From Ischnura elegans (taxonomy: Eukaryota; Arthropoda; Insecta; Odonata; Coenagrionidae), in contig NC_060258.1 in NCBI RefSeq assembly GCF_921293095.1, forward strand, positions 9,004,607-9,068,606: DNA of 64,000 nt, given 5' to 3'. This document shows, piece after piece, positions 10,301 to 58,720 of this stretch (its first letter is position 1; each line of letters starts with the position of its first letter). The notes beneath the pieces are model-generated. The model had not been told where the DNA came from and searched no databases. It saw only the letters and a list, made by a program, of their open reading frames with translations. Both the position numbers and the translations under genes were made by a program.

Positions 10301-13300
10301 AGTAAACTAATGACCAGCAAGTCAAAACGTAACACAAAATCACTTTGAGCCCAGGACCACAACCTCGTCCACGTCTATGGTGCCATACAGCTGTTCATAT
10401 CTTTGTAAAAAAACAAAGCTACGAGGAAGGCAATCATGCTGATCAATGTCCTCCTGACGGCTAATGAACATTTGCTTGACACATTTTTGAATTTGCACCT
10501 GGACAAAAAGTTATTTCAGGTGGTCAAGATAAATGGGACACCCTGTCTATGTTATGAAAAGAGAGTCCATCCGCAGCTGGTTGAGAGGACGTTTGCTGTG
10601 GGGACTCCTCTTGCGCTCTGCGCACGTCTTCATTTCCTCCGTCTGCACTGTCTCCTTCCTGTAGGGCTCAGCCGGATGGTCGAAGCAGATTGCGAGGGAC
10701 ACGAAGGAGATCAAGTTCAATCCCAAGTGCGAGGTGCTGTTTGCGCCCGACGTGGGCCCCGAACACCCGTTCAAGACGGAGCAGCAGAAGGCGCACAAGA
10801 ACATGCTCTCTGGCTACGTGGAGGAGGCGCACATGAGCGAGTTCCAGTTTGAGACGCAGCGGAGGACGTTTGCGAGCTACGGTGAGTGAAATAATAACCA
10901 TAAATGAAAAAAAAGTGAGACCGACCCACTTCAGGAATACAGGAATGTTTCTCGGGTTTCCCACCGGGTGTCGTATCGGGTTGTGGTTCCCAAAGTTTCC
11001 ATGACTAAGTCTGTCATGGAAACTTTGGGAACTACATCCCGATACGACACCCGGTGGGAAACCCGAGAAATATTCCTGCAGAGCATATGCCGGGAAAAAC
11101 TCAGATTCTACATCACTTCAGGAATAATTACGTAACACTTCTCAGTTTTCATCGTCATGACCACTGGGCAACAATCCCAAGATTGTTTAGACGCAGTCCA
11201 CTCAGTTCTCCCATCAGCTTCGTATTTCTTTTCTTTCACATCTCTCTTTAATTGTTCCGTATATTTTGTTCGAGGTCTTCCTTTTCCATTCTTGCCTTCC
11301 ACCTGTCCCTCGACGTTTGTCTTCATCAGGCCATCATGTCTCAAGATGTGGCCTACAAGGTTGTTCCATCTTCTTATTAAGGTTTTCATCTCAAGACTTC
11401 TCTTCTCTCCTACTCTTCTTAGGACTTCCTCGTTACTAACTCGGTCAATCCATTTGATTTTCATCATTCTTATGAATAGAACCACATTTCGAAGGCCTCT
11501 ATCCTTGCTTTCCCCGCTGCTCTATTTGTCTATGCCTCACTTCCGTATAGGAGTACACACCAAATGTAAGTTCTGATAAACTGTTTCCTTACTGTTATGT
11601 TTAAATTTCCCGCTGCAAGTAGGTTTTCAGTTTTACGATGCTTTATCAACACCTCTCATGGTTACATGGCAATACATTTATGGCGGATGACCTACATCGT
11701 CCGTACACAGCTGACCGCAAACCAACTACTGGGATGTACAGAGACACCTAAGAAAATGTAACTGGAATGGCAGTGTGTGAAACGACTGCGTCAGTAAAGG
11801 CATTAGCTTTTATTCAAATTCATGTTCCAACACCCTTAGAAATGAACCAATAAAAGGAAAATAGCTCTATTATGTGAACTCTCATTCAACAGAATGCTGT
11901 CCGGTCTTTGTAGTGTTAAGGTTGAATCATTGAGTGATTGCATGAGTTACAAGTAATTATTTATTTTATATTAAGTAATAACGTAGATAACTGCTCAGAC
12001 TGGATTATATACTCCCAGTAACGTAATTTGTTTTTTTTTAATCTCTGGTCCTCCTACCTTGAATGTGTGATATTTATATACCAGTGGCTTAGTCTGGCGT
12101 GAGTTACAAGTAATTATTTATTTTATATTGAGTAATAACGTAGATAACTGCTCAGACTGGATTATATACTCCCAGTAACGTAATTTGTTTTTTTTTAATC
12201 TCTGGTCCTCCTACCTTGAATGTGTGATATTTATATACCAGTGGCTTATCTGGCTTAGCTTTACCCTCAACTATCCAAACCAACCTTCAGGTTGAATTAC
12301 GGAAAGAGTGAAAGAACCGATTATAATTTGTATGTCTTTGTGTGTGTAGGCTATGCGCTTGATCCCACGGTGGATGGTGCCGCTCCAAAGGAGGGCTACA
12401 TAGGTCAGACGGAGGCGGCCGAAGAGAAGGCTGGGAAGACGGTGTTCGAGTCGGCGCCCGCCCGTCCCCTCGACAAGAGGAGGAGGAGGAAGAACGACAA
12501 CCCGGACGACGTGGAGGGGTTCCTTGGGCCGTGGGGCGGATATGTGGACGAGAGGAGAGTCATGAAGCCAAATGATGTGAGTACACACTCATTGTATCAA
12601 TAATACCCTCCGTATTAATGTTAGGTACTTAAAGGTTATTGCCAAACATTTTTAAAAAGACGAGCGTGCTGCGCCCGCTTTCAGCGGGCTTCCCCCGCTC
12701 TTTTCATTGCAGGTCCACAGAGGGATAGGCGCGTTTCTAATTTAAAATGTAGGAAAAAAAGGCAGGGTCTTTTGTACGAATTTAATTGGAATGTTCATGT
12801 ACAAATTGAGGTCATAGGACCTCTTTAAACGCAACATTGGAAGTAATTACACTATCCTCTGTTAAACGTTTATGATGACTCATACTTACGTATCAACAGG
12901 AGACTTGAATGTGGAATCAGCCGCATTTTGATAAAAGTTATTCAAAGAATGGGAGATATTGATGCAAATGAACATATATATCAGTTTGTGCGCCGTTAAC
13001 GTCAGGAATATTTACCGGTTTTTGTTTTTTTTTTTTGTTTTTTTTTTAATTATTTAAAAACCGATTTTAGGAAACAATAGCAATATTTAGGAAGTAAGAT
13101 ATGCCGTCACATGTTCTCTGATAAATTCTGTGCATTTTGGTACCTCATTTGTAGAGTTTGGTTTCGTATGAGTTGAGAAAAAGGTATCTATACAGTAGAA
13201 ATAATATAGGAGATATTTTAGATGAGAAATATGAGGAAAAAATTATTAAGCATGATTATTTGGTCGCCATGGGCATTCAATTTCCTATTTGCACTGCCAT

Positions 13301-16300
13301 TCCGGTCATAATGACCGAAACGCATACTTCATCTTCTCGATGTTTTGGCCATAATGACCGATATACGATTCTTTTTTTCGGCCACCAATAGCGAGACATT
13401 GGTCACGGCTACTCTGGTGATGCATAAACAATGTGACCAACGCGGTGCACGTGGCCGAAGGCACACAAAAACTAAAATGGAGGGGACCCAAGTACAGTAA
13501 AAACCTCTCTGTAGTGAACCTCTTTACATCATAAACCTCCATACTTCATACCACCCCTACGGTCCCCATCAGATTTACATGTAAATTTATAGGCAAACCT
13601 CTTTGTAGTGAACCTCTTTATCTCATAAAATCTCCACCTATCATACCAAGGAGACACCCCTGAAATGGCCTAACTACGTCTGCAAATCAAAACGAGACAA
13701 CTATAGACCATTAATGCAGCCGTGATTACCTAAATGGAATGACATTTTCAGCGATAAATGTTTCACACTTATTTTTGTTTTCTTATAAACCTTTAATGTT
13801 CTGTAATTTTCTCTTTAACCATTAGTTGTGGCCATTTTGTTCCTTATGAGAGCATACCTAACGGTAAATAAGAAAAAAGGTATTCAAGTATCCAAATCTT
13901 TTTAAGTGACTATTGAATTAAGAGAGATCACATCGTTTCCTCTCGAATCATGGTAAAAATCATGCAATAGCGCTCGCTTTCTGCAATTATTAAATAATAA
14001 TTATATGTTCACTGATGCGTGCATGTTTGTTGAAACACATACATATAATGGTTTAATAGGCAGTAGTGCCTTTCATTTCCAAAGGATATGAAAAAATGGT
14101 ACATATCACTGAAACCTCTCTATAGTGAACCCCCATACATTAAATTGCCCAAACTTTGGTCCCCTCCATTACGATGTAAAGAGGTTTTACTGAATTACAG
14201 CAAAAGAAAAAAGAAAAGACGTTAGGTGCAATTGGTGAATTCGTCTGAAAATGCGGCAGAGAAAGTGTTAAAAACAAATAATGCTTGACCAAATTTGACA
14301 GTGAAGTATATACAGTGAGCCCTCGTTTAACGTCACTTACCGTTCCTGAAAAATGTGACGACAAACGAAATGACGTTAATCGAAGCATAATATCCCATAA
14401 GAAAAAATGTAAAAAGTGAATATCTGCTCCTAGACCTCACAATTCCTACGCGAAAAAAATGTTAGCGTATCATATCTGGGGCATTTTTTACGGCGGGAAT
14501 GCCAAACTATCGCATAAATACGAGTTCCTGTCTTTATCGACGACAATAGCAGCAGTGACGTAAATCCTTCTCCATTTTTGTATCTTCCAGCATTTGCTTT
14601 TCGGCTTCGCTATGGTGGTCGCCCGGGCGAGCGTCGCCTGGGCATCATTTAAGGTTCTTAGAGTACAGTCTAAAAACCTTGGGCATCATCATCGCTGAAA
14701 CATCGTCGCAGCTACAGGAACCAAAATTATTGTGAACTCGGCGAAAAAAGTGACAACAAAAACTCCGAGTTCTACACGGAAAAATGCCTTGAAATCACTT
14801 TTTAGGTTCCTGAAAACCATTATGTCAAGTAAAACCTTGCGCACTTACGCAAGAATTCATTTTGCAGAAATTTTTGCTAACACCGTAATCCCAATTATCA
14901 ATAAACAACACTGTTTTACACTTTGTATAGACTGACTATATTACTGCCCACAAAACGAAGAACCTGCAACGCCCGCCGCTTCGCCTTTTATTCGCGCGAA
15001 ATTTGAAAGGCGTGACGTTATCGCGAAGCGTAGGTGCGATAAACGAATGACGGTCTCAAAATTTTCGTGACGTTATCGCGAAATGACGTTAAACGGGGTG
15101 ACGTAGAACGAGGACTCACTGTACAGTGGAACCACGATCTATCGTTTTTCAGGGCGATGGACGAAAAAACGATTAATGTGGAAAAACAATCAATGCGGGA
15201 ACGTTTGGTAGGTTGCCTATGTCCCAGGAAACACAGCATTTTTGGCATCATAATTCCCTGTAATTATGATATGCCTCATAGGATTCAAACAAGACTAGCT
15301 AATTACAGGAATATTATTACTTTATCGAAACAATTAGGTCATATTGTTGATTCGACGTAGAATAAATCCAGTGGAACCTTTATCTATCGTTTTTCAGGGG
15401 GATGGACGAAAAAAAAACGATGAATGCGGGAATGTTTAGCTAAGTTGCCTACGACCCAGGAAACGCAGCATTTTGGCGTGAAATTATGATATTTGTTAAA
15501 GGATACAAACAAGATTTTAGTTGATTACACGGATACTATTACTGTATCGAGACACTTAGGTCATATTGTTGATTTGACTAATATCTCTTTCAAATATCCT
15601 AAAGGAACAAGCCGCCTCGCTAAAAAATGTTTGCACTCCACTCTGCATTTGCACTGCTATTACAGATTTCTGTCTGATGTAAAGATTCTTATCCAGGAAC
15701 AGGGAACGATGAATGCGGGAAAACGATCAATGCAGGACCAATAGATTGGGGTTCTGCTGTACTTCTTTGACCTGCCGAGAAACAAGGGAGGAGAAATGTT
15801 GACGTGACCATAACAGTGAGAAGATGAAGTACACGTTTTTTGTCATTATGACCGGAATGGCAGTGAACTTGCTAATGGGTAATAATGAATGCCCATGGCG
15901 ACCAAACACGAGGGTTGTACCAAAAGCAAGGTTCCCATATTTTTTACAAATACAAAACTTTTTTTATTGATATTAATTTTCACATCGTTGAAAAGCTTAC
16001 ACTTTTGCCTATTTTTCAACATAGTCTCCATTTTTTCGACAAACTTTTAAAGACAGTGGTCCAGCTTTTTTATCCCTAAGTTGAAGAAGTCTCCTGCCAA
16101 CCCGTTGAGGAAGTGTGTGTGACCTGTGCTCGGACTTCATCGTCGCTCTTGAAGCATTTGCCATCTAAGAGTTTTGTTTCGGGGATATAATGAAATACCC
16201 ACGCTTCATCTCCGGTGACGATAGAGACCAACAACTTCTCCTTGTTGCCCCCTACCTTAAAATTGTTGACGAAATTTGCGAGCAGCGTCTAGGCGTTGCT

Positions 16301-19300
16301 CCATGAGTCCATCAATCAGCATCCGGGAGACCCAGCAAGCACACATCATGCGATAACCCAACGTTTGTGTTAAAGTTCTTTCAATTGTGCTGTGAGAAGC
16401 TTCAGAAATGCGTTCAACAAATTCACGGTCAGTGACCCTCTGATCTTTGAGCAGCTCACTGTTGATCTTCTGGACAACCCAAAACCAGCGGTCTTCACTT
16501 CGTTCTTCATCGTGGACTTCCATGCAGCCCTCAGCAAAAGCTCTGCAACATTTGCGGACGTGCTGAACGGGCATGCACTCTTCACCATAAAGTTCAGTCA
16601 GGTGCTGATGAATCTCCAATGGCGGTAACTTCCGTGCAAGGAGAAATCTGATTACTGCTCGATCCTCACGCTTGGCGGGAACGGGGATCATCACTTTCAT
16701 TGTTGACGGTTGCTAAGCCAATAATGAGCGACAAAGTGAATCGTGGACTGGCGGACTCGAGAGTAGGGGAACCACTGCACACGGCAATGTTGTGGGATTT
16801 AGCTTAGCACCTTTGCTCAACATTGTAGCTCATTGGGAACCTTGCTTGGTACAACCCTCGTAATTACGCTTGATAATTTTTTTCTCGTATTTCTCATCTG
16901 AAGCATCTTTTAAAAATTTTGGTGAAAAGGCTGTATGTGTGTTCTCTAGGCACAATGAATGTTATTATTTTTCTGTGGGAAAGCACCAGATCTTTTTTCG
17001 ATACTCTCATGCCATTTTAACCTCTTATCTGCTACTATGTATTCGTTTTACTTGTCAGGAGGAGGCGGCAGAGTTGGAGGAGATTTTGGCCAAGAGACAA
17101 AAGCGTGGCAAACACAGCGAGGACAAGCCGTTGGAGGAGAAGACAGTGCTTCACAGTGAGTTCTACTTCAACCTCGCCACCTCATCCTGTCTCTGTATAG
17201 TAAAATTTTCATTTCACGGAGTTGCAGGGACTGAAATATGGGCACTGTGTCAAATCAAAGTGTGTAAAATCAAGAGTTGGTATTGAGAAGGAGTATAGTT
17301 CTCAGGATAACTCTTGCTCATTATTTTTAGAAGGCTTAATCATACCTTTTTGTACATATAGTTCTGATTTAAGCCAGAACCGGAACCAGAAAAAGTCTCA
17401 TATGTGAGGTTTTACGGTAAATGAGCATGAAATCCTTTTCAATCACATCAGATGTATGTTTCCCAGATTCAATTACTCATTTGGAGGCAAGAAAATGAAG
17501 CCTATTAATCTTATTTACTCAAAAGCAACACCACAGATGATGTGTTACCTTAAGAGAAACAACGTTGCAATCCTGAACAGCGTTTCCCATGGTTGAACAA
17601 AATGGTTGAAATGCCATCATTTCTGGCACTAAGATTACTTCTGTTACCCAGGAGAAATTTTGGAATGGTGATACTTAATGGTCGCAGAGAAGCTAATTTT
17701 CGAAAATATTCTCATTAAAAGCAGTTTTCAGGAAATCCGTTTTACCACCTGCAGACAAACAAACATTGGAGATTGAAGAAATGAGAAACCTGAGGATAGT
17801 CATCCAAATTAACCCCATTAAACAAGGTGCAAAATTTCTACTTGAACCTCGCCACCTCATCCTGTCTCTGTACTTTTAATTGTCCTACTTTGTCACTGAA
17901 AATGTTTGAGTCATGGCTGGCCACCAAGGAGGTTATACTGGAGGGGGCACATCTTGTTTGGTAGGAAAAGCCAAAACTTTGACAATCCCATAAGGGTTAC
18001 TATTTGGTGAAATTTTTGGTCACAACTCGTTAATACATTAAAATACGCTACGGAACGCACACAGTAAACCTTCTACAGTAAACTCTCGATTATACGAAGT
18101 CAGTGGGACTGGAAAATTGGCACTTGGTAAGATCGAGTTTCATAATTTGAAACCTTTTTCATAAGTCATGAAAGAGTGTTCGCTTTTGTTTCCTCCGCCC
18201 TTTTGCGCCTTTAGTGGCCTTATTTAAACGTTTTCGGTGGTTATTCACGGTAGAATTCTTAGAAAAGGCTTTTTGTTATCGATTTATGCTGTGAAAGATT
18301 GTTAAATAATTATACCACCATAAAATTCCCATTTCTTGTGCATCACAAGTTCACACTGTGTCACATGTGGCGAGGGTCGTGCTTACTAAGCCACTGTCTG
18401 GGTGAAAAACCCTTATTTTGTTGCTGGTCTGCGACGACGAATTTCAAAGCACTGCAGGAACCAGTGACTTTGTATGCAGTCATGCGCACGGGTGCAAAGT
18501 TAAACACACCAAAGGATGAAGTTCGCCATGAGAAAATATTCGACTTAGCCGGGATGCAGCCACAAAGGATTAGATAGTAAGGAGTTTTACATCTTTTATA
18601 TCTATCTATCTATAGACACGCGGCCCAAAGAACATAAGCGCCACCTCCACCTAGGACAGCCCGAAAAGTCAGCCATCGCAGAGCATTGGATGGAATGCAA
18701 AAATACTGTCAAGTTTGACGACACCAAGATGCTCTGCCGATCCAATGGCTTTTGGGATCGACTCATCAAAGAGTCGATTGAAATTAGACTGTCTAATAAC
18801 ACCATCAATAGAGACTCCGGCTATGATCTGAGCAGCACTTGGAAACCTGTGCTCAAGACAATACAAAAGACTAGGCAAAACCACCAATCAGAGTGCATGC
18901 ATGAGACACAGAGCTAAGGGAAACATCTCTTAATAATCACCTATTAAAACTGCCTAAGGTCGGAAAGTTTCCTTCATTTGATAGTTTATTAATAATCCTT
19001 ATTTAAGCCTAGCGCTACCTGCTAGCAGGGTACTCCAGGTCAGCATCACAGCAGTGCACAATATCCTCGCCCCAAGGTCACCTCACATGGTGACAGCGGG
19101 AACCAGAATGACCTCACACGGGCTTTTCCCAGCATTCATACTTAGCCCTTGCATTTTCGCGCAGTTGAAAGTTTTCACTTTTCATTTAATCGTGAAAAAT
19201 AGATATTGTCATTTAAAAATCTAAAATCGTGAAATAGGTACTCCAGGAGTAATAATCTTTCGATTTAGGCAACCAAATAGAAGTAGGAAACCACCCTATT

Positions 19301-22300
19301 GTAATTCAGTAGACCTCTTACAACTCTGATGCTGTATTTTCATTGCAGAAAGTGAAATACAGAATTCAGTTTTTAAATGAGGTATATGTTTGCCATGGCT
19401 TTGGCCTGTTGGCTGCATGCAGTGATGATTGACAAACCCTATTAGAATCATTTGTGTTGAAAAGAAAGTCTGAGCATGCTGCCGAAGGTTGAGTCAAAGC
19501 ATGTGGCAACATTTAAGGTGTAAATACACCAACGGATGAAGTTCCCCATGAAAAAAATATTTGACTTAGCTGGGATTCGAACCTGGATCTTCCGATTGCC
19601 GTCAGGTGTGCTAACTAATTACACCACCAAGCGTACAAAGCCACTTGTTCCTGCAGTACAGTGAGTCCTCGTTCTACATCACCCCGTATAATGTCATTTC
19701 GCGATAATGTCACGAAAATTTTGAGACTGTCAATTGTTTATCGTACCTTCGCTTCGCGATAACGTCAAGGCTTTTAAATTTCGCGCGAGAAGAAAACGCG
19801 AAGCGGCGGGCGTTGCAGGTTGTTCGCTTTGTGGGTGGTAATACAGTCAGTCTAAACTAAGTGTAAAATGGTGTGTTTATTGTTAATTGCGATTACGGTT
19901 TTAGCATATTTTCTGCAAAATAAATTCTTAGGTAGGTGCGCAAGGTTTTACTTGACGTATTGGATTTCAGGAACCTAAAAAGCGATTTCAAGGAATTTTT
20001 CCGTGTAGAACTCGGAGTTTTTGTCCTCACTTTTTTCGCCGTGTTCACAATAATTTTAGTTACTGTGATTGCGACGATGTTTCAGCGATGATAATGCCCA
20101 GGCGACCACCGTGGCGAAGCCGAAAAGCAAATGCAGGAAGATACTAAAATGGAGAAGGATTTACGTCACTGCTGCTATTGTCGTCGATGAAGACCGGAAC
20201 TCGTATTTATGCCATAGTTTGGCATTCCCATCATGAAAAATGCCCCACATATGATACGCTAACATTTTTTTTGCGTAGGAATTGTGAGGTCTAGGAGCCG
20301 ATATTCACTTTTTACATTGTTTCTTACGGGATATTATGCTTCGAATAACGTCATTTCGTTTATCGTCACATTTTTCAGGAACGGTAAGTGACGTTAAACA
20401 AGGACTCACTGTACTTTGAAATTTGTTGTTGCAGACCTGCAGCATAATAAGGATTTTTCACCCCGACAGTGGCTTAGTAAGCACGACCCTCGCCACATGT
20501 ACCACAGTGTGGCCTTGTGACGTCAACATCTTGTTCGGTAAAACCCATCCCGAAGTTCGCTCTGAGAATATGGCTTGGTGGTAAAACTGGCTAACACGCC
20601 TGACCGGCAATCGGGAGATCCTTGTTTGAATCCCGGCTAAGTCAAACATTATTTCATGTCGAACCTCATCCTGTGGTGTATTTAACTTTGAACCCGTGCG
20701 CATGTCTGGGTACAAAGTCACTTGTTCCTGCACTTCTAAAATAACTTTATTGCTAGGCTTTGCAAAGTTATGACTCAAACATCTTTTCCTGGGAAAGAAT
20801 TAGCAATCACCATGGTTACGTTATGTTATGCACTTAAATGTTAAGATGTCAATGTTGCTTACAAAAATAACAAAGATGATAAAAGTAATTTTGCTAAGCA
20901 CTTAATGTGCAACTGCTATAAGAGCGATTTTTGAATGAATATCTTATAATTATGCAACGACAGCCGTGAATTGGACTCCAGAGAGCAGTTGGTTATTTTA
21001 AAAATTATTGAAAGTCAGGACAGCACTCTGATAAAAGAATATATCTTTAGACCCATCCTTTTCCCCTATTCTTGCGTCCGCTTTAAAATTAATCTCTTCC
21101 TCCGTTAGGTAACTAGGTAACAATAATAAGATAACGAGCGTGCTACGCCTGCTCCCAGCGGGCTTCCCCCGTTCTTTTCAATGCAGGTCCACTGATAGGA
21201 TAGGCACGTTTCTAATTTTAAAATGTTGGCAAAAAAGGCAGGGTCTTATGTACAAATTTAATTGGAATGTTCGTGCACAAATTGAGGTCAGAGGACCTTT
21301 TTTCTTGATTGAAGCTTTCGCGGCTCATGATGATTGAAAATAAGTCACATACGGGTGTATGCCGCGTGTCGTGATGGAGATAGCCCCGACGTTTCGCGAC
21401 CGACTGCTGGTCACTTTTTCAAGGGAATAGTGTTAGGATTGAGTTTTTGCTATCTTTTTATATATTTTAGGCGGAAGGGGTGGGCGAAGGGTGTGGGGAG
21501 TTCGGACTGGAGGGGGAAGATAACGAAATGTTGCAAATGACTGGGTTCCAGGTATTGCTGATTCTTAATCCAGTATCTCTATTGTAGTTGTTCTTGTTTT
21601 TCTTTATTTCTATGGCCTCGCGGATGAGTCTGGTTTTAAAATGTTTTATCCTCGCGATGACTCTTGATTTTTCGAAATCGATCGCAGGTCCGGTGGCTTC
21701 GTGCTCCGCTATGGCTGACTTTAAAGGGTAACCCAGTCGAATGGCCCGCTTGTGTTCTTCTATCCGAGTTTTGACTGTTCGTCCGGTTTCCCCGATGTAT
21801 TTCTTCTCACACGATCGGCAGGGGATTTCGTATACTCCTTCAATTTGAAGTGGCGTCCTATCCTTGGCATTTCCGAGGAGGTGTCGTACTTGGGCGTGTG
21901 GTTTAAAAATGGCTTTAATGTAAAATTTCCGGAGGATGTTACCGATCTTATCCGTTGTTCCTTTCACGTAGGGGAGGAAGGCTTTCTTTTGGTTAATGAT
22001 GTCTTCTGCATTTTGGGAATTGTTCCTGTTGTCCTTGTTGATAATCATGCACCTGAAGATGATGATAATTCATCAAAACCTGGGTCGCGCTAAGTAAAAA
22101 AGCAGTGGTATAAGTAATCGTGTAATATCCAAGAAAATTTATGCAATCCTCTTTTCTTAAATTGGTACATCTCCTACGTCCGTGATATTGCAGTCAAGGA
22201 CGCCGTGGATTACCAGAACCGCTCGTTCCTGCACCCACCCCAGGACGTTGGCATCAACCTGCACCACTCTGCGGCCGACTCCCCACCCGAGCGCTGCTTC

Positions 22301-31300: not shown

Positions 31301-34300
31301 CACCACGTCTGACGACAAGAGTCTTCGTGTCTGGGAATGGTGAGTCGTGACCCCTTTTCGTTGTTCTTTGTTGGAGGGAGCCCCAGTTTAACTTCCGCGC
31401 AGAATGCAGTGGGTCAATATGTAAGGGTGCAGCGGCCCGCCACCTCGAAAAGTGTCGCGCGTCGCACGCTTCGAATTGCGCGTGGGTTCTTGCCCTTGGT
31501 GTCGGGAAGCGAATAATCACTCACAAACGTATTTGAAGTTTTTGACCCAATGTTTATTTCCATTAAAAACCCATTTTCCCAAATCAATTCAAGCAAAAGG
31601 CATGAAGTAATAGTGAATATGTGTGTCCAGAATAGCCAAAATTAAGAATATTACCAATGTCTCGGGAAGGAAATGAGCTGCTGGTGATGACACGGGTGGA
31701 TAGCGAGGCGCTTAGGTCGCACGGGCCAGAAGACCCGCGCTTAGACTCCAACTGAGGGCTACATTGCTGACTGACCACTGACGAGTGACCAGTGACTGAT
31801 TATGAGTTACTGAGTGAGTCCCTGAGTGCGTGAGTGACAATAGCATCTCCACCGTGTCATTATATAGGGAGGTGGAACCAGGATGTTTTCGTCCAAGAGG
31901 AAGGGGAGGAGGAAGGTTAGGCGTTCTTGAAAGTGAAAATGTGCAAATCCCGAGGCATAGTTTGTCATAGCTGGCTATTCTGAGACGTCACACAACACCA
32001 TATTTATACATATTTTGGAAATGGAAATCTTCCATTTCCGGATCACTACAAATATGCTGACAGTCCCATTGATCATGGGTAGAGATACGCGAAAATCTCA
32101 CTTTCATTTTTATTTTATTGCACTTTCAATAACAGTTTATCGCATTTTGTAGCGTCTATTTTTTTATTTTCATAATGAGGTAGATGACGACAAGATGTAG
32201 TGAAACACAGTTAATATGACAATATACAGAATATTTTAAATAATTATGTTGTAGAACAATAATAAATTAAGGAATGAGACATATAGTAGCGATTATCTTT
32301 ATTCATCCACGGCGAGGATTGGCCCTCGCGGATGCTGTATACAACACATTTATGAAAACATTCAATACAACGAAACATACAAAACATGTACATTGGATTA
32401 AAACATTAGAAACACATACATTACAAAGATTACATTTAAATTTACATTTAAAATAAAAGAGAAGAAAAGTCCAGCTCAAAATACCCATGAATTGAGTACA
32501 GTGGATAATTGCACAGCCACTTTTCCAGCACATTTTTCAGTCTAGTGATGCTCACTGATCTGGCTTTGCTGGGTAATTTATTAAATAATTTTACTCCCAA
32601 ATTGTCAGACTGGTTGTTGGTCTTAAACAGCCTACAGTAATTAGTATTTAGGCTATTTTTAGCCCTAGTGTCATGAGAGTGGATGGTGGATCGAATGGGG
32701 TAGGTATCTAAGTTATCTTATAGTGGCAGAGGTGAAGCTTGACCGCGCCCACTTGTGGTTCACGCCCACGTAGATTCAGCCAGCCAACTAGCAGCTGGCC
32801 AGTCGCTCACATGCTTTAAGCGGTGAGTGTCGGCGGAGCATTTAAAACTGCGCTCGGCACGAAATGTACGAATTTTGCCGTCGAAATGGCAAATTTGCGT
32901 AAAAATATCATAAAATTCCAATCATCGCATCTATGTCGCATTTATCGCATTTGCGATTTTCATGCATCTCTAATCATGAGTAACTCTTGTTGGAGTATAC
33001 TTTATTAACAAAATAAGTCCTAAAGATCCACAGAGGAAAAATCATTCGCCTTGACCGGGATTCGAACCCGGATCCCTCGATTTCCGGCCGAGTGCTTTAG
33101 CATGTGACTACGTAGATTTCCGCGGTGTTCAGGTTCCAATTTCTCCATATTTCCGGTGCAACCGCGTCGGTTTGTTGGTGATGACAACAGTTTCGCTGGT
33201 GATGACAGCAGTGCTAGCGAAACTGTTGTCATCACCAACAAACCGACGCGGTTGCACCGGAAATATGGAGAAATTGGAGTGCTTTAGCAAGTTAACTTGT
33301 CAGCGCCCAAAGTTTTTTTTTAATTCGCTCATATTTCACTTTTAAAAAATATGATACATGTGAGCTCAACACAATTCAAACTGACTGAATAATAGAGGAA
33401 ACCTTCTACTAAGTATGTGCACCGAAATGTATGCTAAAATTCACATATTAAATGCATTGCAGGAGTATTGGCTCAGCACTGCACTGGGTGCCATATGGCA
33501 CCCGTGGGCGTTGACTGGTTAAGCTACCGAGGTGTCATTCTTCCCTGTGGATATTTGCGGACACTACCGGACATAGAACTATTTACATAGTGCCCGTTGT
33601 CAAATAAATTACAGATTCGAGCATAGAAGTGCAGGATATTTACATACGACGGATGAGTTTTTAAACTGTATTAAGCAACATAATTTAGTGTGATTTTAAT
33701 ATTTAATTTGCTTCAAGGGCAGAAAGGTTTGCATAGCGGTACACTAACTTAATTTGTCCGATAGTGTCCACAAATATCCACAGGGAGGAATGACGCCTCG
33801 GTAGCTTAACTGGCTAAAGCACTCGACCGGAAATCGGGGGATCCGGGTTCAAATCCCGGTCAAGGCGAATGATTTTTTCTCTGTGGATCTTTCGCACGAT
33901 TGTGCATTGCGGGTGACTCCTGTTAAAAGTTATCACCGCGGCTAGTCCCGGTATACTTTAAACTAAAATAAGTTCTTTTTTGTGTATGTATAACGTGGTT
34001 GCAGGGCCTGGGTGGAGTTCGGAAAGGTGTTGCCAAGGTTGCGTTTATGTTTGATGTAACTGTTTTGTTTTGTTCTTGGTGTAAGTGCACTTTATAACCT
34101 CTTGTGAATAAAAGATTTTTTGCGAAAAATCCACAGAGGTAAAATCATTCGCCTTGACCGGGATTCGAACCCAGATCCCTCGATTTCCGCGTGTGCTAAC
34201 ATTTTTGACATTTATTGTGTCATTTTCCTCGTTCTTGTAAAAGCAAGAAAAACTATTTTGTGGTTTTAGTAGTAGTAATTTTGGGGGTTTTAAAACTCTT

Positions 34301-43300: not shown

Positions 43301-46300
43301 GTCAAAAAAAATTGTGATTTGAAGCAGAATCAAAAAACTGATGCCAAAAACACTTGAGTTATAATTATTATATTTATGTAACAATATTTCGCCAGATTCA
43401 AAAAAGGCCTTAAATGTTTAAGTTGGAAGGCTAAGTAGTAAGTAGCTATGAAATGTATCCTGCTTATTCCTTTTCTTGATGCATTCTTAGTAAGTGACGT
43501 ACGGTCTCACAGACTGCTAATCGAATTGAAATTCAAATTTACAAAATTTAATAAAAGGAACATTAATTTTTAAGAGTGGGATGTCCTTGTTATGCAAAAA
43601 TATGAAGCTAACGAGAATTATAGATATTTTGAAAATATTCATAATTTTAGAAATGCAGAGGTCTCTCAGACCGCACGTCACCGGTTAAGGGTTAATATAT
43701 TAATTTTACTGAAAGTTCTTTGTTGGTGTCTTCATTGAGAAATAACCCAAGACGTGTCCATTCGAATCATTCCTTTATTAGGGAGGTCCGAAAACAACTG
43801 AGATGAGAACCGATGGTAGAGATGGGTGTGGTCCCCTAAACTTTGCTTGAAGAGTATTTTTTTATGAATAGGGCGCCAGGGGCATACACAGGATGCACCA
43901 CCAAGTTAAGGTACATCACACTGACTTTCGGCAAGTTGGATTTAAACAGACTCACGAATAATTTACTTATAAATTTAATAACACTTCAGAGTCATTTGGA
44001 TATTAACAAAATTATTGGCACCATTCCAAAATTTGCCGTCTTTTAGGTTGGTTTCCTCTAATGTATCCCACAAAGGTCACGCTCTCCAAACATTATTATC
44101 TTAAATTACTTGTACGATTGTGAAACAAATGAAATAAAATATGGCACCTGTCCATGGATGCCCACTCACAAAAAAATATTGGGGGGGGGCCAAAACCGGG
44201 GATCTTGCCATGGGAAATTTTATATGTAGTGGAGTTTTAAGTTTTTTTAAGCATTTTAGAAGAGTCATATGATCAACATTGGAACCCTGATAACTTTAAT
44301 CTCGATATGTGGACACTCCGGGGAAAATCGACAAGCCTGACACATTTTTTCCTCACACCCATAATGAATTTTTGAGGGGGCTCGGGCCCTCTCAGGCCCC
44401 ATGGAGTCGGCGCCACTGACGGAGGGGACGAAAGAGTCTATTGGGGCTCAGTACAGCAGTCATTCCAAGGAGAGAGAACTCCACCATCTTCAAAGGGCTA
44501 GAGGGTTGGGGAGAAATTGTGTCACGAAATTTTAACTAACACTAAGTCTAAGTTTCCGCTGTGGGTACCAAGTGAAACTTTCTCCATGTGCTTAAGTTGA
44601 CATTCCACTTATAATTTAATAAAAGCAATTTCTTAGGAAAAAATATGATGAAAAGTGAGCATTTCGCATTTCATAAAATTTAATTCTGCATGATGGTTCT
44701 ATTTTCCATTATTTAGTGTATTTTTTCCGTGAAACTGCGCTGAAATCTAAAATAAAACAAGAGTTTAAAATAGCCTTTTCAAATAACCCTATCAAAAAAG
44801 AATCAAGTTCTCTTTTATCTGCTACCACCTTTATTTTATACTGGAGACCTTGACACACACTACTCATTACACGCAGTCAACTTGACTGTCAGCGTCTCCT
44901 TGGGTTTCTCACGCTGTTCTGTCCCTACAATAGTTGCCAACTGATTCTCTGATTGGATGATTGGTACAAATTAGCAGCCCAAACTGCGATAGGTGTGGGA
45001 ATTTGGATAAGTGGACGTAAAGGTAAAAAAAAAGATTCATTTGGAAGGAAAAATCTGAAAACTTTAAAAAGTCGATTAGTTTTCGAGATGTATCGACTTG
45101 AATTAACGTGGGAGCCTTATGGGACTAAAACTTTTTCGATTTTATTCTGTATTTATAAATGTCTCAGGAACATGATGTTCCCTGGTCGAAAACTAGATTT
45201 TTTGGTGTGGTTGTCATTGCGGTAAATTGGTATTTAGTATTTTTTTATGATTTTTTTTAAAGTGCCCAATGCTTTTCTTATGGGACTAACTTTGGCATTT
45301 TTTTGACCAACTTGGAATGACAGTAGGACAAATTCCTTGAAACCCAAGATACTAGATTTTTTGCTTGGTTTTTTGGCTATCTTGGAATTTTCATTCGTCG
45401 AAACAATTCCGAGGAATAAATGATTTCGATTTTACATTGTTGAGATGGGCGAATTTTCAATCTCGGATTTCGGCCTTGAGACTTTGGCAGGTGTAAGTTT
45501 GTTGTTTTTAATGTTTCGCCTGCAGTCCAGCAGGCATCTTTAGGTCAAAGTGCTGATTATCTGGGTGGTCCATCTCATATTTGAGAATCCAGACAAGCTG
45601 TTGGCTGTATTTGGAGGTAGAGAGCTCCTAGGATATCAAGAAATTCCCTGAGGAAACCACATTGACAAATCATTGGTATTTCCGGGAATTGACTCATTTT
45701 TCTAATTATATTTTTGGTGTTAAGCTATCAAAATGTTGTTAGTAATATATTTTATGCATTCATGTTCATGTAAAATGCCTTTATTTTTATTTAAAAATTA
45801 TTTAAAATTTTATTTATATATGCCTAATTTTATTTAATATTTTCTTTGAAGATTATTGTAATAGTTAATATAACAGTGTGTTTATGACTTATTTTTACAT
45901 TTTTTTTTTGGTATATCTTTAGTAAAGTGTTATTGTAATAAGTTTTTTGAAATTTTTTCCCATGGGTTATTGTGAAAGTGTAAAATAAATTAATAAATAA
46001 ATACAGTAAAACCCCTTTACATTGTATTGGAAGGGACCAAAATTTGGGCAATTTGATGAATGGAGGTTCACTTTAGAGAGAGGTTTTAGTGATAGGCACC
46101 ATTTTCTCATATCCTTTGGAGTTGAAAGGTACTGCTGTATTTTAAACCATTATATTTATGCATTTATATAAACATGTGAGCATTATCGCATGATTTTTGT
46201 CATGATTTGAGAGAAAACGATGTGATCTCTTGTATGATCTTAGGTTTTCCCGGCGTATCAGTTGCAGAAAAGTTTCTCGGGTTTTCCACCGGTTGATGTC

Positions 46301-47688: not shown

Positions 47689-47691
47689 TAT

Positions 47692-49628: not shown

Positions 49629-49639
49629 TTTCGACAATT

Positions 49640-51150: not shown

Positions 51151-51402
51151 ATTTCCCTCCCGCCCCACGTGCACCCCCTCACTGCTTCACACACCAATTC
51201 CCAAATTATCACTCATTCAACGCTCACTTTTTTACCGCCATCCCTCACTTCTCAATTCCCTTCCTCCTAGTATTGATCCCTTATCCCTATTCCCGAAAGT
51301 CTTTACTAACCTGGCTCTATCTTACCTCTCTGAACATCAATATCAACATATCACATTTAAATAAATCAATATTCAGCCCTGAAGATGAGTGCAGAGACGG
51401 TA

Positions 51403-52321: not shown

Positions 52322-52642
52322 TACTTGAAACGTTCGCCGTTATAAAAACATTAACGTGGTGGGAATCCCGAGAAAAGTTTACCCGCAGTGATTCCAATGT
52401 TTTTTCGTCCAATTTTATTTAAAAAAATAAAGATCACGGAAAATAGTGATTGAGAGTGAAAATCATGCACGGATAATCCGTAATACCGATAAGCCACAGC
52501 CGGATAATCGAGAATCTGCTGTACTACTAAGGAACACATATCGCAGGGGGGAATACTGATCACAAGGTAGTGCAAAATGTTGAAAACTTCAAACTTAACT
52601 CAGCAACTACCATAGCATAGAAAATAATAAATAGTCTACGTA

Positions 52643-53409
52643 CAGTGAGTCCTCGTTTAACGTCACTTACCGTTCCTGAAAAATGTGACGATAAACGAAA
52701 TGACGTTAATCGAAGCATAATATCCCATAAGAAACAATGTAAAAAGTGAATATCGGCTCCTAGACCTCACAATTCCTGCGCGAAAAAATGTTAGCGTATC
52801 ATATCTGGGGCATTTTTTACGATGGGAATGCCAAACTATGGCATGAATACGATTTCCTGTCTTCATCGATGACAATAGCTGCAGTGACGAAAAATCCTTC
52901 TCCATTTTTGCATCTTCCGACATTTGCTTTTCGGCTTCGCTATGTTGGTCGCCCGGGCGAGCGTCGCCTGGGCATCATGATCGCTTAAACATCGTCGCAG
53001 TTACAGGAACCAAAATTGTTGTGAACACGGCGAAAAAAGTGACGACAAAAATTTCGAGTTCTACACGGAAAAATTCCTTGAAATCACTTTTTAGGTTCCT
53101 GAAAACTATTATGTCAAGTAAAACCTTGCGCACCTACCTAAGAATTCATTTAGCAGAAAATTTGCTAAAACCGTAATCGCAATTAACAATATACACACCG
53201 TTTTACACTTTGTGTAGACTGACTGTATTACCGCCCACAAAACGAACAACCTGCAATGCCCGCCGCTTCGCCTTTTTTCTCACGCGAAATTTAAAAGCCC
53301 TGACGTTATCGTGAAGCGTAGGTGCGATAAACGAGTGACGGTCTCAAAATTTTCATGACGTTATCGCGAAATGACGTTAAACGGGGTGACGTAGAACGAG
53401 GACTCACTG
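52643..53409. mobile_element. MITE-D copy 3
   Basis: cagtgagtcctcgtttaacg to aacgaggactcactg, TA borders, 767 bp. Confidence 0.87.
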
Positions 53410-53438
53410 TATGCACGCAATTTAATAGCACATAACTA

Positions 53439-53612
53439 CCGTATATGTCAGAGTATAGTCCCTCCCTTTTTTTCAAAAATGCCTGTGGTATGAGTAAAGG
53501 GGGGGGGGACTATATTCAAACGCATATTTTTAAACTTTTCCCTAAACTGAAGCCTCAAAATTCGGGGGGGGGGGACTATATTCAGAGGGGGACTGTATTT
53601 GGAGAAATACGG
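53439..53612. mobile_element. Short MITE with CCGTAT ends
   Basis: ccgtatatgtcagagtatag to gactgtatttggagaaatacgg, given in parts, flanked by TA. Contains two poly-G runs. Confidence 0.65.
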
Positions 53613-55610
53613 TAGTCTCTTTATCTGCAGTTGACCAAAATTCTTAAGTCCTTACAAAATTCTTAAGTTCTTAATGTTTAGTTGGTTGGGAAAAAGACAT
53701 TATTGGTGGTTTAGAAATGTCGATGATAGCCCTTCGAATGAGAGTTCTTGGGATGCGGAAATGCGGTGGCGTCGAGAGCCTGTAGTTTAAATTCGTGGCT
53801 TCAACGATATTCGTGGATTTGTTTAAAAAGAGAAGTGCTTTTTGGTTGTTTAAAGTTTAAAAAGCAGCGAAATGATGAAAAATCATGGAAAAATTGCATA
53901 AAAAGTCAAAAACATTGGAATTTGCTTAAAAACTGAAAAAAGTGCCAAAATTCGCCAAAAAATTGCAAAATTATGCGTTCGCGAAAATCAAGGAGTCCTA
54001 TTGATTAGTCAGGTCAGGGGAAAATACAAGCCGAGGAGTTTTGAAGTACAATATACTGCTCCAAATCCAATGGATATGCAAAATGCCTTTGGCAGAGGGT
54101 ATTTGAAATAAAAAAAATAGTATTTTAGCCCTTTTGGTACCAGCCTGCATAGCTTATAAACGTGGAGGGGTCGAAAAAGGTTCAGTGAGACCCTTCTAAA
54201 CGAATGCCCTCCAAAAAAATGCTCCGTACCACGAGAAAGAAGAGTCTCTTGGGGCTCAGTACAGCAGTCATGCTTGTAAGACGAAAACTCCTCCGTCTCG
54301 AAAGGATTAAGGGTGGGATGTCCTTGTTATGCAAAAATATGAAGCTAACGAGAATTATAGATATTTTGAAATATTAATTTTGAAAATATTCATAATTTTA
54401 TGAAGTAATCGATGATGTGGAGAAAGGGGTAATGTACAAAAGTATTGGTGTAATGAATAAATAAAATCTGGGGTCATTGAAGATGGTATAATATGAATTT
54501 ACGCACATTCACCTATCTTATGGGCAGATGAAGTACTCTTTACTGTTCGGAATTAAGAACTTAGTTCTTCCGCTCCTTTAAGTACATACAGCGTAAATAT
54601 TTATCCACTCCATTAAAAAATAGCAATAAATTTGGATGATATTCAAACTAAAGATCATAGGTTGAATTTTAATCAATAAATTGCTTTAGGAGTATGTAGT
54701 GAATATGTAGGTTTGCACTTTAAAATTTTTACAAATCCTAATATGCATTTTATGAAGCTAATATTTTTTTCATGTGCTCTTATGGGTATATGTAAAAGCA
54801 TGAGAGGTACTAATGAATAATTGAAAAAGCTAATAATACGAAGCACAAAGAATGATATGTGAAAGTGTAAAAAAATCCAAGGGATGGATATGCTCCTGGA
54901 ACTCTTCTCACATACTGCTGGCCAATAATTTGGCCCACTCTCACTATAAGGGAGAAATCCTTTCAAGATAATTCGTATGGAAACTAAGACATCTTTAAAA
55001 AATATGACCTATTTTAGCATGTTAACACTTTCTGTGCCATGGACGTAAGATTACGTCTTTCCATTTAATTGGCTTTGTATGCGTGAAGCCGTAATATTTC
55101 GCCTGTCGTACTTTTCCAGTTTACTGCTTAATGGTTCTGTTATTTCAAAAATCAACTGCTCAATGGAAAAAGAGTTCACTTTATGTATACCATTCAATCA
55201 ATTCAAAAAAATACTTGATGACGAAAAGTCCTCTGTAGCTACCGGCATCCTTATCTTAGGCCACTTTGTGTGAAAATTCTTTGGAGGAATGAACCTTTCG
55301 TTGAGGGTGCAGTGACCCTTTTTGTCATCCAGGATTTTGAATGCTTTGCTTGGAACGATACTTTTGTATGTTTTACTTAGTTTAAATAGTTCAAATTGAG
55401 CGTAATAAAAAATTATTATGCATTTTATGGAGGTACATCATTTGTAGAAACTTTTTTCTTTCTCAACAACAGTAGGTTTTCATTATTATATTATATATTT
55501 AAAAATTAGCAGTAATGTTATTCAACTCATTCATAAAGAGGAGCAAAGTCCATTTTTATTGAAATACACATCGATATAAATATATTTTTTATGCTAATCT
55601 TTTATAAAAA
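53613..55610. other. Downstream region: no gene
   Basis: A fragment of repeat J at 54307-54400. Otherwise AT-rich sequence with only short chance frames. Confidence 0.4.
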
Positions 55611-56176
55611 TGGAAGGGACCAAACTTTGGGTATTTTGATGTATGGAGGTTCACTATAGAGAGGTTTTAGTGATAGGCACCATTTTTTCATATCGAAAGG
55701 CACTACTGTCTTTTAAAACATTATATTCATACGTTTAAAGAAGCATGCATGCATTAGTGAACATATATTTATTTTTTAATAATAACAGAAAGTGAGCGCT
55801 ATAATGTGATTTTCACCATGATTCGAGAGGAAACGACGTGATCTCTCGTAATTCAACAGTCACTTAAAATGATTAGGATAGTTGGATACCTTTTTTTCTT
55901 ATTTACTGTTAGGCATGCTATCATTTGGAACAAAATGGCCACAACTAATGATTAACGTAAAAATTACAGCATAGTGAAGGAGTAAAAGAAATAAATAATC
56001 ATGAAACATTTATTGCTGAAAATGTCATTCCATGTACGAAATCGCAGCTGCATTAATGGTCTCTAGATGTCTCAGTACGATTTAGCCATCTCGGGGGTGT
56101 CTCTTTGGTATGATAAGTGGAGATTTTACGAGATAAAGAGGTTCACCACAAAGAGGTTTGCCCATAAATTTACATG

Positions 56177-56562
56177 AACTCAATTGTTGAGGCCTTCACT
56201 TTGTAGAATTCCATATTTAATGTTTGGAAAGGAAATTGCTTAGCTTTTCTACAAAACAAGAGACTAACAGTTAGTTAACTAACTAACCTCTTTGTGGTGA
56301 ACCTCTTTATCTCGTAAAATCTCCACTTATCATACCAAAGAGACACCCCCGAGATGGCTAAATCGTATCAAGACATCTAGAGACCATTAATGCAGCTGCG
56401 ATTTCGTACATGGAATGACATTTTCAGCAATAAATGTTTCATGATTATTTATTTCTTTTACACCTTCACTATGCTGAAATTTTTACGTTAATCATAAGTT
56501 AACAGTTAGTTAACAGTTAACAACTATGTTTTGTAGAAAAGCTAAGCAATTTCCTTTCCAAA
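56177..56562. mobile_element. Fold-back insertion 4 containing an inverted copy of its target flank
   Basis: The target duplication cataaatttacatg is at 56163-56176 and 56563-56576. Arms 56221-56258 and 56527-56564 are perfect 38-nt inverted copies. The tail (56177-56220) is on the left. The centre, 56285-56500, is a 216-nt inverted copy of 55943-56158, the host MITE sequence just outside the insertion, with about six mismatches. Confidence 0.85.
56285..56500. repeat. Inverted duplicate of 55943-56158
   Basis: Colinear in reverse complement over 216 nt with no indels seen. It is centred exactly between the two 38-nt arms. Confidence 0.9.
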
Positions 56563-56999
56563 CATAAATTTACATGTAAATCTGACGGGACCGTAGGGGT
56601 GGTGTGAAGTACGGAGGTTTATGATGTAAAGAGGTTCACTACATAGAGGTTTTACTGCACTTTTTGTCATGTTGCAAAGGAGATTGAACTATGGATTTGT
56701 TACTACGAATTAATTCTGTAGCAGATATAATGAAATAAAACAATGTCAACAGATGGAATGTCAGTGGATATATGTCCCTTGGTACATTCCACAGTGAACG
56801 TATCACGTGCAGTTTGAGAAAGGGAAAAACTTTTAGGGTGGGGTGAAGTTCCCACAGTGGCCTCTGGCTACGTAGCTTCAGCACTGAATTTTCCGTTGCT
56901 TCCAACATCCATCCTCACCGCAATACGGGAAAATGTCCCAGGAATATTTTCTGATTCATGATTCACTTTCGTTTCTGCTTGTAGACCTGCAGGTGAAAC

Positions 57000-57646
57000 A
57001 GGTGGTTTCTTATTATTTTTTATTGCCTAAATCGAAAGATTTTTACTCCTGGAGTACGTATTTCATGCTTTTAGATTTTTAAATGACGATGTCTATTTTT
57101 CGCGATTAAATGAAAAGTGAAAATTTTCAAGCACGCGAAAATGCGACGGGTAAGTATGAATGCCGGGAAACCTCCCGCTTGACATCGTTCTGGTTCCCGC
57201 TGCCGCAAGTGAGGTGACCTTGGGGCGAGGCTTTGAGCGCTGATACTAGCAGGTAGCAGAGTACCATGCTAGCTGGTAGCACTTGGCTTAAATAAGGATT
57301 ATTAATACCATATAAAACAAGGAAAACTTTCCGAACTTAGCCAGTTTTAATAGGTGATTATAAAGAGACGTTTCCCTGAGCTCTGTGCCTCATGCATGCA
57401 TTGGTAACCTCAGACGATGTAAAACTCCTATCTACCCGTATAGAAACTAGGTCCCTGTGACGTCACGTGGAGTGGCATCGCATGGGCGCCAATCTGGCCT
57501 TTTTCAAATGAGGTTAAAATTGAACATTAACATTCGTCTAAGCTGGGATTTCTAAAATCAAATAATTTGTATATTATGAATACACTAATGGTGGGTAACG
57601 AATCACAATCAATGTCTTTCGTTTTCTCTGATGGAGGAAACTACCC
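57000..57646. mobile_element. MITE-B copy 3, reversed
   Basis: aggtggtttcttattattt to gatggaggaaactaccc, with the family's tttactcctggagtacgta and gtccctgtgacgtcacgtgg blocks. Confidence 0.78.
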
Positions 57647-58310
57647 TATTCATTTTTTTGCGACATTATGGAGTGTCGACTTTGGGGTTGAAGAACGAGT
57701 GGTCGAAAGTTATGAGCTGTTAGAGAAATTATTTTGTGATAATTAAGGTTATAGAAATCATTTCTTTTACTTTACCCCTCCCTAGTTTAGTAGACTGCAC
57801 CAATATCACGTTGCGCTGTTTTGAGCGTTGTATCCTGTTACTCAGACTGCACCGCAGTACATATTAGCATTTGCGTGTTGCCTATACTGCAGGATACATT
57901 TGCGCAATATTAATGCAGGGTCTCAATATTCACTGTCTCAGTACATAATCGCGTGTAATTATTTACCTTTCATTTTAGACACTTCCCCTCGATCTATATT
58001 CATGAAAATTGGCATACACATCGAAAAAGTTCCCACGTTTTGTTGAGTGCAAGCAAATTTTTACAATTTTGATCTTATGACCTTACAGTGAGGGTCCAAA
58101 CCAAAATCCAAATTTTGCCTTAAGGAGTTTCAATGTCACAAAACATAAGGACCTTGGACGAATGTATCATATTTACGATAATTACACCGGTATTAAACGT
58201 AAAATAACAGTAACATTAAGGAGTTCTAAGAAACTACAACTAATTCAAAACTAAATTTTAAGGGGATTGTTAATTACACTGGTATCAACTACACTGTTGA
58301 AGTGATTCGC
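57647..58310. other. No gene recognised
   Basis: AT-rich intergenic sequence without recognisable elements. Confidence 0.35.
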
Positions 58311-58323
58311 CATGAAAAAAGTC

Positions 58324-58492
58324 CATGATAAAAAGAAGAACACAATGGTAATTTCCACACTTTTAATGTCACAACTCAGCAACCGACCATGGTTTCAACA
58401 CGTAAGTGTCATTTTCAAGGATTATTTATGTGTTCTTCTTTTTATCATGGATATAAAGAACTTCCACAAAATCGAGCCGGATACGATTTCAT
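58324..58492. mobile_element. Fold-back insertion 5 (169 bp)
   Basis: Target duplication atgaaaaaagtc at 58312-58323 and 58493-58504. Arm catgataaaaagaagaacac (58324) is flush with the left copy and inverted at 58429-58449. A 43-bp tail (58450-58492) precedes the right copy. Inserted in SINE-2. Confidence 0.85.
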
Positions 58493-58720
58493 ATGAAAAA
58501 AGTCATTTGGCTTTGCCGGGATTCGAACCCGGATCACCCGAATATAGATTAGTTGTGCTATCAGTTACACTACCAAGTCATGTTCTTCAAAAACGAATCT
58601 CAGAATGGGTTTACTGAACAAGCTGTTGAATCTCATGTCAACACTGTGACACAAGAGATGGAGGTCGTGCTTACTAAGTCACTATCCGAGATAAAAACCT
58701 ACTTTTAGCTATGATTTTTA
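58493..58720 (-). repeat. SINE-2 copy with tRNA-like head
   Basis: B-box complement gggattcgaacccgg near 58518, gttacactaccaagtcatgt for the D-arm side, then gtcgtgcttactaagtcact of the body. Confidence 0.68.

Follow-up and report, generated by a model that had tools for sequence, protein, structure and literature searches.

How are short fold-back insertions formed, when several of them, belonging to different families, are found within one locus? The question is raised by a 64,000-nt stretch of the Ischnura elegans genome (assembly GCF_921293095.1, contig NC_060258.1, positions 9,004,607 to 9,068,606), referred to as the window. It contains five insertions, here called el1 to el5, each composed of two inverted arms and flanked by a target duplication. 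The analysis indicates that they are very probably de novo products of Penelope-like elements (PLEs), generated by target-primed reverse transcription in which both cut ends of the target act as primers. The reading that suits them best is that of insertion products rather than self-copying units, with the possibility that a fold-back is occasionally copied.

Read directly from the window sequence, el1 to el5 are 174, 174, 707, 386 and 169 bp long, with exact target duplications of 13, 13, 13, 14 and 12 bp (Table 1). In each of them, one arm is flush with the duplication, while a tail (35, 34, 34, 46 and 43 nt, respectively) separates the other arm from the second duplication. The position where the tail ends is indicated as site 1, that of the flush end as site 2. 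All five coordinates, duplications, lengths and the one-flush, one-tailed layout given in the original prediction are present in the sequence, as is the length of exactly 174 bp common to el1 and el2; we infer that the latter reflects similar distances from start site to ribozyme, not kinship. The similarity claimed for the first three tails holds for el1 and el3 (78% over 65 bp, arm included), and is weak for el2.

A mechanical scan of the window, for direct repeats of at least 11 bp with an inverted arm flush on one side, recovers five insertions out of five, together with many rows from a satellite at 62.5-63.9 kb and a few from SINE-type (short interspersed element) and other repeats, at 19.6, 33.0 and 43.1 kb. 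One of its rows, 19642/20719, was rejected as a fold-back, since by eye it consists of SINE-like repeats around another element. The dinucleotide-shuffle control produces one match in total over 100 shuffles. When the scan is loosened to repeats of 9-20 bp, with the satellite excluded, 13 rows have one end flush, and a tail of 34-46 nt is present only in el1 to el5; the sole row with both ends flush sits within el3. Paralogous empty sites, spanning the rejoined flanks, are available for four of the five insertions: copies of a tRNA-like repeat for el2, of a repeat named R for el3 and el4, and a SINE end for el5, where the left side of the alignment covers just 6 nt. For el1, no such site is found within the window. 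Duplications, empty sites and shuffles rule out chance or an assembly artefact as the origin of the insertions. Matches of 0-3 nt between the flush duplication and the start of the tail (permutation 4/120) are suggestive only. A further, older copy of the el5 family, el6, features a decayed duplication.

The Penelope origin originally predicted is borne out by the coding content of el3, el1 and el4. In el3 lies the coding sequence for the C-terminus of a PLE endonuclease, matched at 81% by P0012, a database protein of 709 residues containing a reverse transcriptase (RT) domain, and many loci of its family hold longer P0012-like frames, mostly at 79-89%. A single frame, open across the arm into the tail, can be read directly in el1, el2 and el3. 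Among the loci fetched from the genome (L numbers), L064 shows an el1-family arm and tail forming the first codons of a frame which reaches the RT region, L072 contains the endonuclease part of the same family frame, and in L134 a frame of 860 codons (best tblastn match to PLE proteins, 7.8e-85) opens with the el4 arm and tail. Because the L064 and L134 frames run through it, the tail is coding and belongs to the early part of the PLE message. el1 and el3 are also homologous at the protein level (shuffle p 0.0002). Between the el2 tail and other PLE N-termini the similarity is weak (p 0.01 and 0.03), so that el2 membership rests on layout, frame and position of the GAAAC core. The distance of this core from the flush end is 60 nt in el1, 58 in el2, 57 in el3 and 73 in el5 and el6; by manual count, it lies 60 nt from site 2 in the el4 family. 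By layout and GAAAC core, both el2 and el5 fit as PLE members. The el1 and el3 families have the motif CTGATGA or CTGAGGA at the start codon, and on this motif we base our reading of a putative hammerhead ribozyme there. Several hallmarks of PLEs are present: a frame with RT and GIY-YIG domains (el1, el3 and el4 families), one-sided tail, inverted or tandem partial copies, short duplications and 5' truncation. PLE relatives were also sought in viral and prokaryotic contigs, where none was found, and a protein search gave no match apart from its own query.

L134 (G000 C8:5718950-5721950) is one unit of a PLE array with 2772-bp spacing (C8:5716244-5727010), composed of three units in one orientation followed by two reversed, 99% identical to the el4 arm and tail. 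The array looks recently active.

Where do the ends fall, relative to the reading frame? Counting from the ATG, the flush end is at +78 in el3, +75 in el2 and +84 in the el1 family, the tail end at +112, +109 and +118, respectively. For the el1 family, in reference numbering, the two sites correspond to positions 95-103 (mode 99) and 128-138 (mode 132). Passages of a biochemical study of an anole PLE (PMC11167929) report that, in vitro, cDNA synthesis begins 111-118 nt inside the reading frame, that two adjacent start sites are used, with the tail as the interval between them, and that both target strands are cut and extended. The genomic ends described here coincide with the biochemical start-site position of this distant relative. 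The tail, as early coding sequence of the PLE frame, lies between two internal RT start sites like those mapped in vitro for the anole PLE.

The 1.72-Gb assembly containing the window was surveyed for each family. The candidates found at first look are 1972 for el3, 632 for el1, 464 for the el1 arm only, 888 for el2, 1719 for el5 and 861 for the el4 arm plus tail, none of these figures being a copy number; in each survey the best 40 candidates were scored. Pairs of arms, read by letters, are defined as mixed when one end is at site 1 (tailed) and the other at site 2 (flush). Over the five families, 105 of 106 head-to-head insertions are mixed. L064 is left out of the pairs because its right copy continues into the frame, and the apparent site-1 end is not an end. 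In the el3 family 14 of 15 pairs are mixed, the flush end of L030 being about 7 nt short. The el1 family contributes 38 loci, 36 of them paired and 35 mixed; the el2 family 19 mixed pairs out of 19 (one of the 20 fetched loci has no pair), the el5 family 16 out of 16 and the el4 family 5 out of 5, including el4 itself. A recount of the el2-family listing by coordinates gives 34 of 40 places with the tail on one arm only, 5 without a readable second arm and one with a shortened tail, while in the el4-family listing 5 of 40 places have a nearby inverted partner, 4 of which were fetched. L021 contains an additional, internal tailed copy within the insertion. The tail is on the left in 26 and on the right in 21 of 47 el1-family elements.

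A tail-blind list was obtained by using the el1 arm, without its tail, as query: its 60 matches correspond, by manual count, to 38 places. For 22 of these a nearby inverted partner is visible; nine had already been read, and the 13 newly fetched ones are all mixed. The remaining 16 were read as 601-bp stretches, three of which turn out to be mixed pairs with duplications of 12-15 bp (L137, L144, L145). Overall, this list contains 25 head-to-head pairs, 25 of them mixed, with no symmetric one; had each end been free to choose between the two sites, the probability of such a result would have been about 3 in 100 million. The 13 newly fetched pairs and the three from the 601-bp stretches are counted in the total of 105 of 106. 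The genome scan suggested along with the original prediction did find further copies with the same layout, tail and duplication length.

Duplications accompany most pairs. They are exact in 33 of 35 el1-family pairs (9-15 bp, mode 13) and in 12 of the 13 newly fetched tail-blind ones; in the el3 family all 15 pairs (the fifteenth from L027) have a duplication with at most one mismatch, while 400 random pairs, used as a control, all fall in score bins of 6 or less. Duplications of at least 8 bp are present in 18 of 19 el2-family pairs (at least 12 bp in 14 of them), and of at least 7 bp in 15 of 16 el5-family pairs (at least 11 bp in 11 of them). The 5' ends of the el1 family are clustered: 30 of 75 aligned ends, which include a few matches other than fold-back arms, map directly to positions -5 to +2 of TTAACCCC (maximum, 12 ends at -1), and ten more are at +11 to +13, in the ribozyme stem. 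About 30 nt upstream of the cluster the longer copies L069 and L072 contain TATAAATA. We read the cluster as run-off at the predicted mRNA start of the el1 family, at the position of CATTAACCCC. L142, a one-sided insertion of 128 bp, covers no more than the region between the presumed mRNA start and site 1.

The insertions give no support to the distinct class of small elements that had been proposed: fold-backs are made by several PLE families, their sizes vary and their junctions mostly differ. Elements of the el1 family range from 164 to 384 bp (47 elements, plus one of 1216 bp), those of the el2 family from 156 to 188 bp (19 loci) and those of the el3 family from 475 to 1846 bp; the small el1- and el2-family copies are made of two short inverted starts, with neither endonuclease nor RT region. 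A shared internal junction, expected of a self-propagating class, is mostly absent: anchored junctions are distinct in 41 of the 42 cases read for the el1 family (51 loci given) and in 8 of the 12 read for the el2 family (20 given), where a ribozyme-stem palindrome recurs in five loci; several further junction pairs are near-identical. Comparison of whole strings makes el1-family centres distinct in 47 cases out of 47, a figure which overstates diversity.

Several centres contain filler repeating nearby sequence, as judged by eye (e.g. L066, L087, L088, L090). The captured flank of el4, 216 nt long, is 97% identical to the element's own left flank, versus 78-80% to other copies of repeat R, and ends, by eye, 2-4 nt from the duplication; this centre has the look of an end-joining product with templated filler, and our guess for the joiner of the centres is a polymerase-theta-like activity. 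The two arms of el3 differ by 14 substitutions and 15 internal gap columns. Of the substitutions, 13 are in the inner portion (Fisher p 0.04), whereas the gaps form a cluster immediately upstream of the ribozyme motif: this suggests two non-identical templates. Six el5-family loci (L116, L118, L121, L122, L125, L128) have longer centres, with an inverted GGTATATA...GAGAGTACTGG-type stretch, perhaps representing a longer portion of the element's upstream region.

Two-ended priming is supported by the mixed ends (105 of 106), by the unequal arms of el3 and by the copy of its own flank held by el4. The events would take place in the following order. The GIY-YIG endonuclease would make a cut in each strand, with a stagger, visible as the duplication, of mostly 12-15 nt; 3' overhangs are the polarity that we infer. 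On one side, the 3' end would then prime cDNA synthesis from site 1, located about 109-118 nt inside the frame, and the opposite 3' end, possibly on the same RNA, from site 2, 34-46 nt upstream, the interval becoming the one-sided tail. Both enzymes would copy toward the 5' end of the RNA. On a monomeric mRNA they would run off at the transcription start or stop in the ribozyme stem, producing arms of up to roughly 130 nt; a longer or tandem RNA would lead to long copies such as el3. Finally, the two antisense cDNAs would be joined centrally, by microhomology, by the palindromic ribozyme stem or by a short templated filler, resulting in a head-to-head palindrome. Priming from a single end may occur at times, giving rise to a one-sided insertion.

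Head-to-head orientation and junction palindromes are also accounted for by the proposal advanced in 2013 for rotifer PLEs, in the passages of PMC3846280 dealing with it, whereby antisense PLE RNA folds back and self-primes inverted copies; the ribozyme-stem palindrome seen at several el2-family centres would agree with it. The outer ends, however, coincide with start sites of the sense RNA, one each in 105 of 106 insertions; moreover, two non-identical templates are suggested by the el3 arms, the target flank is found copied within el4 and nearly all el1-family anchored junctions are different, which makes self-priming very unlikely. If priming were one-ended, a single cDNA might snap back on its own 3' end and be copied into a hairpin: the palindromic ribozyme stem at some centres and the existence of one-sided insertions are in keeping with such an event, but the copied arm would repeat the outer end, yielding two tails or none, whereas one tail is found in 105 of 106 cases and no symmetric insertion is observed. 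To this possibility we attach slightly less credit than to self-priming.

The palindrome itself could transpose, as the unit of a non-autonomous fold-back family able to propagate. The abundance of candidates in the genome, the similar sizes of el2-family elements (156-188 bp, 19 loci) and the sharing of junctions, one common to five el2-family loci, another to one el1-family pair and several near-identical, would all be expected of such a family; yet 41 of 42 el1-family junctions are distinct, arm lengths vary within families, and the el1 and el3 families also yield long coding copies, so that we rate it no higher than self-priming. As for fold-backs of DNA transposons unrelated to PLEs, of the Foldback or miniature inverted-repeat transposable element (MITE) type, their terminal inverted repeats with duplications resemble what is seen here, but the asymmetric tail, the PLE coding frames in arms and tails, the ragged 5' ends and the variable length of the duplication reduce their likelihood almost to nothing.

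Some observations weigh against two-ended priming by PLEs, or limit the evidence for it. Most survey queries, whose best 40 candidates were scored, include the tail, and el4- and el5-family loci were selected for having both arms visible in the lists. One end of L003, from the el3 family, is far from both sites, and no duplication is present in L067, L092 and L123. Among the 16 places of the tail-blind list lacking a visible partner, ten are not assignable within the 601-bp stretch and three are one-sided insertions with duplications of 11-14 bp, two of them (L135, L142) ending at site 1, the third (L136) at site 2; because such insertions occur, two-ended priming is to be considered common, not obligatory. 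Recurrent and near-identical junctions could result from occasional copying of a fold-back. No autonomous partner of the el2 or el5 families turned up, no search having been aimed at one. The Rfam scan of the window reports tRNAs at the gathering cut-off and weak matches below it, none of them a hammerhead at either level. The in vitro start sites, in the passages of PMC11167929 describing them, are alike on both strands, which leaves the rule of one site per end unexplained.

Inverted PLE copies, tails and duplications are already known. In the twin priming of long interspersed elements, two 3' ends of the target prime on the element RNA, producing an inversion; each of the two cDNAs corresponds to a different part of that RNA, whereas those of the present insertions begin within one common interval of 34-46 nt, with duplication of the same region. 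The rotifer element Pen2a_Av, as portrayed in parts of PMC3846280, shares with the present families inverted pseudo-long terminal repeats (pLTRs), short duplications, junction palindromes and 5' truncation; a 31-bp tail, optional on one of its inverted copies, is similar to the tail found here. Its duplications are of 8-10 bp, versus mostly 12-15 bp here, and, unlike in the rotifer, many copies here are two short inverted starts alone. Inverted pLTRs and short 3' extensions are also mentioned in sections of a curation guide (PMC8969392). PAc, the Anolis PLE, is similar, in the passages of PMC11167929 concerned, in having both strands cut and extended, two internal start sites and the tail between them; its hammerhead over the start codon and its start 111-118 nt into the frame resemble, by motif and position, what is found here. 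No difference in start site between strands is reported for PAc in vitro, whereas in this genome each head-to-head insertion has one of each; in the portion of the PMC11167929 text consulted, the word "inverted" occurs only in "3' inverted dT". Metazoan retrozymes, in the parts of PMC7229834 that describe them, are also small, carry a type I hammerhead (assigned here by motif) and have PLEs as suspected mobilisers; they consist of tandem repeats and small circular RNAs, whereas head-to-head pairs with reading-frame starts are found here. Tandem head-to-tail units of the retrozyme kind were not found in the paired loci, which are all inverted, head-to-head. No description of the one-site-per-end rule, of minute two-ended PLE insertions or of a run-off origin of tiny copies came up in the literature searched, which is not proof of absence.

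Table 1. Coordinates of the insertions and of other PLE-related features in the window (right copies of the duplications under Remarks).
Feature	Position	Strand	Remarks
el1 left target duplication CACTTCAGGAATA	10927..10939		right copy 11114-11126
el1 left arm, antisense	10940..11005	-	flush end = site 2
el1 right arm, sense	11013..11078	+	63/66 identical to left arm; GAAAC core 60 nt from site 2
el1 tail, 35 nt	11079..11113	+	ends at site 1; codons extend PLE reading frame
el2 left target duplication GAGTGCTTTAGCA	33090..33102		right copy 33277-33289; within tRNA-like repeat
el2 tail, 34 nt	33103..33136	-	site 1 end at left
el2 left arm, antisense	33137..33197	-	
el2 right arm, sense	33216..33276	+	flush end = site 2; GAAAC core 58 nt from site 2
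el3 left target duplication CGATGTGATCTCT	46218..46230		right copy 46938-46950; in repeat R
el3 tail, 34 nt	46231..46264	-	11-residue translation continuing frame from start codon
el3 left arm, antisense	46265..46557	-	PLE 3' end, TATA region, putative ribozyme motif, first codons
el3 right arm, sense	46644..46937	+	flush end = site 2
el3 PLE GIY-YIG endonuclease C-terminus	46586..46789	+	P0012 residues 642-709, 81%; coordinates converted from L001
el3 hammerhead-type motif CTGAGGA...GAAACGTC	46854..46888	+	pattern match
el4 left target duplication CATAAATTTACATG	56163..56176		right copy 56563-56576; in repeat R
el4 tail, 46 nt	56177..56222	-	N-terminal codons of 860-codon PLE frame in L134
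el4 left arm, antisense	56223..56258	-	
el4 captured inverted copy of left flank	56285..56500	-	copy of 55943-56158
el4 right arm, sense	56527..56562	+	flush end = site 2
el5 left target duplication ATGAAAAAAGTC	58312..58323		right copy 58493-58504; at SINE end
el5 left arm, antisense, about 99 nt	58324..58422	-	flush end = site 2; ribozyme-like motif
el5 GAAAC core			73 nt from site 2 (left arm)
el5 right arm, sense, 21 nt	58429..58449	+	
el5 tail, 43 nt	58450..58492	+	ends at site 1
el6, older el5-family copy	141..377		tail at left, decayed duplication
PLE fragment with GIY-YIG coding region	21303..22069	-	single orientation; first coordinate approximate
PLE endonuclease-like fragment	18580..18893	+	inside repeat S copy; assigned by eye, no Pfam match

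The PLE copy at 21.3-22.1 kb is uninformative on element ends. Among the other repeats of the window, R has four main copies (13490-14197, 22431-23139, 45992-47380, 55609-56662) and is the host of el3 and el4. Repeat family S is found at 8259-8870, 18894-19303, 34360-34470, 56996-57650, 58730-58952 and 59393-59986; its interpretation as 5'-truncated PLEs was rejected, since the longer copies carry terminal inverted repeats AATAGGGTGGTTTCC and are hence MITE-like. An interspersed family of about 760-815 bp, with copies 84-90% identical, is present at 14311-15124, 19652-20414 and 52640-53415, while two direct repeats of about 289 bp, 94% identical and about 579 bp apart (42825-43113 and 43692-43977), are LTR-like. 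The palindrome-rich tandem satellite at 62500-63950, with units containing TGTTCATTTTATGTTCAC, dominates inverted-repeat scans. A helicase-like frame at 29987-30475, with a Pfam helicase match below its cut-off, is possibly part of a Helitron. Exons of a host gene, pre-mRNA-processing factor 17 (CDC40), are located at 10409-10880, 22196-22420 and 40255-40647: the exon at 22.2 kb matches PRP17 structures, the frame at 40 kb has WD40-type matches, and the piece at 10.8 kb (10409-10880) is one that we take to be a CDC40 exon. el1 is about 59 bp downstream of an apparent splice donor.

Beyond the origin of the single insertions, we lean, on balance, towards a more general reading, in which PLE integration would be two-ended by default. 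One ribonucleoprotein, perhaps a dimer on one RNA, would give each end a different start site, symmetric insertions hardly occurring and one-sided ones occurring. As the start sites are just about 110 nt into the message, the default product of a monomeric mRNA would be a tiny palindrome that stops at the 5' end of the message, and long copies would depend on tandem or read-through transcripts. A small palindrome whose duplications are intact records, for a single event, the two starts, the two stops and the join; because such palindromes keep these traces, a genome census can read the PLE integration mechanism directly. The resulting quantitative rule, a different start site for each end, may be checked with purified protein. 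The two-ended scheme is an alternative to antisense self-priming, and would unify the one-sided tail, the inverted pLTR, the many minute copies and the junction palindromes of PLEs.

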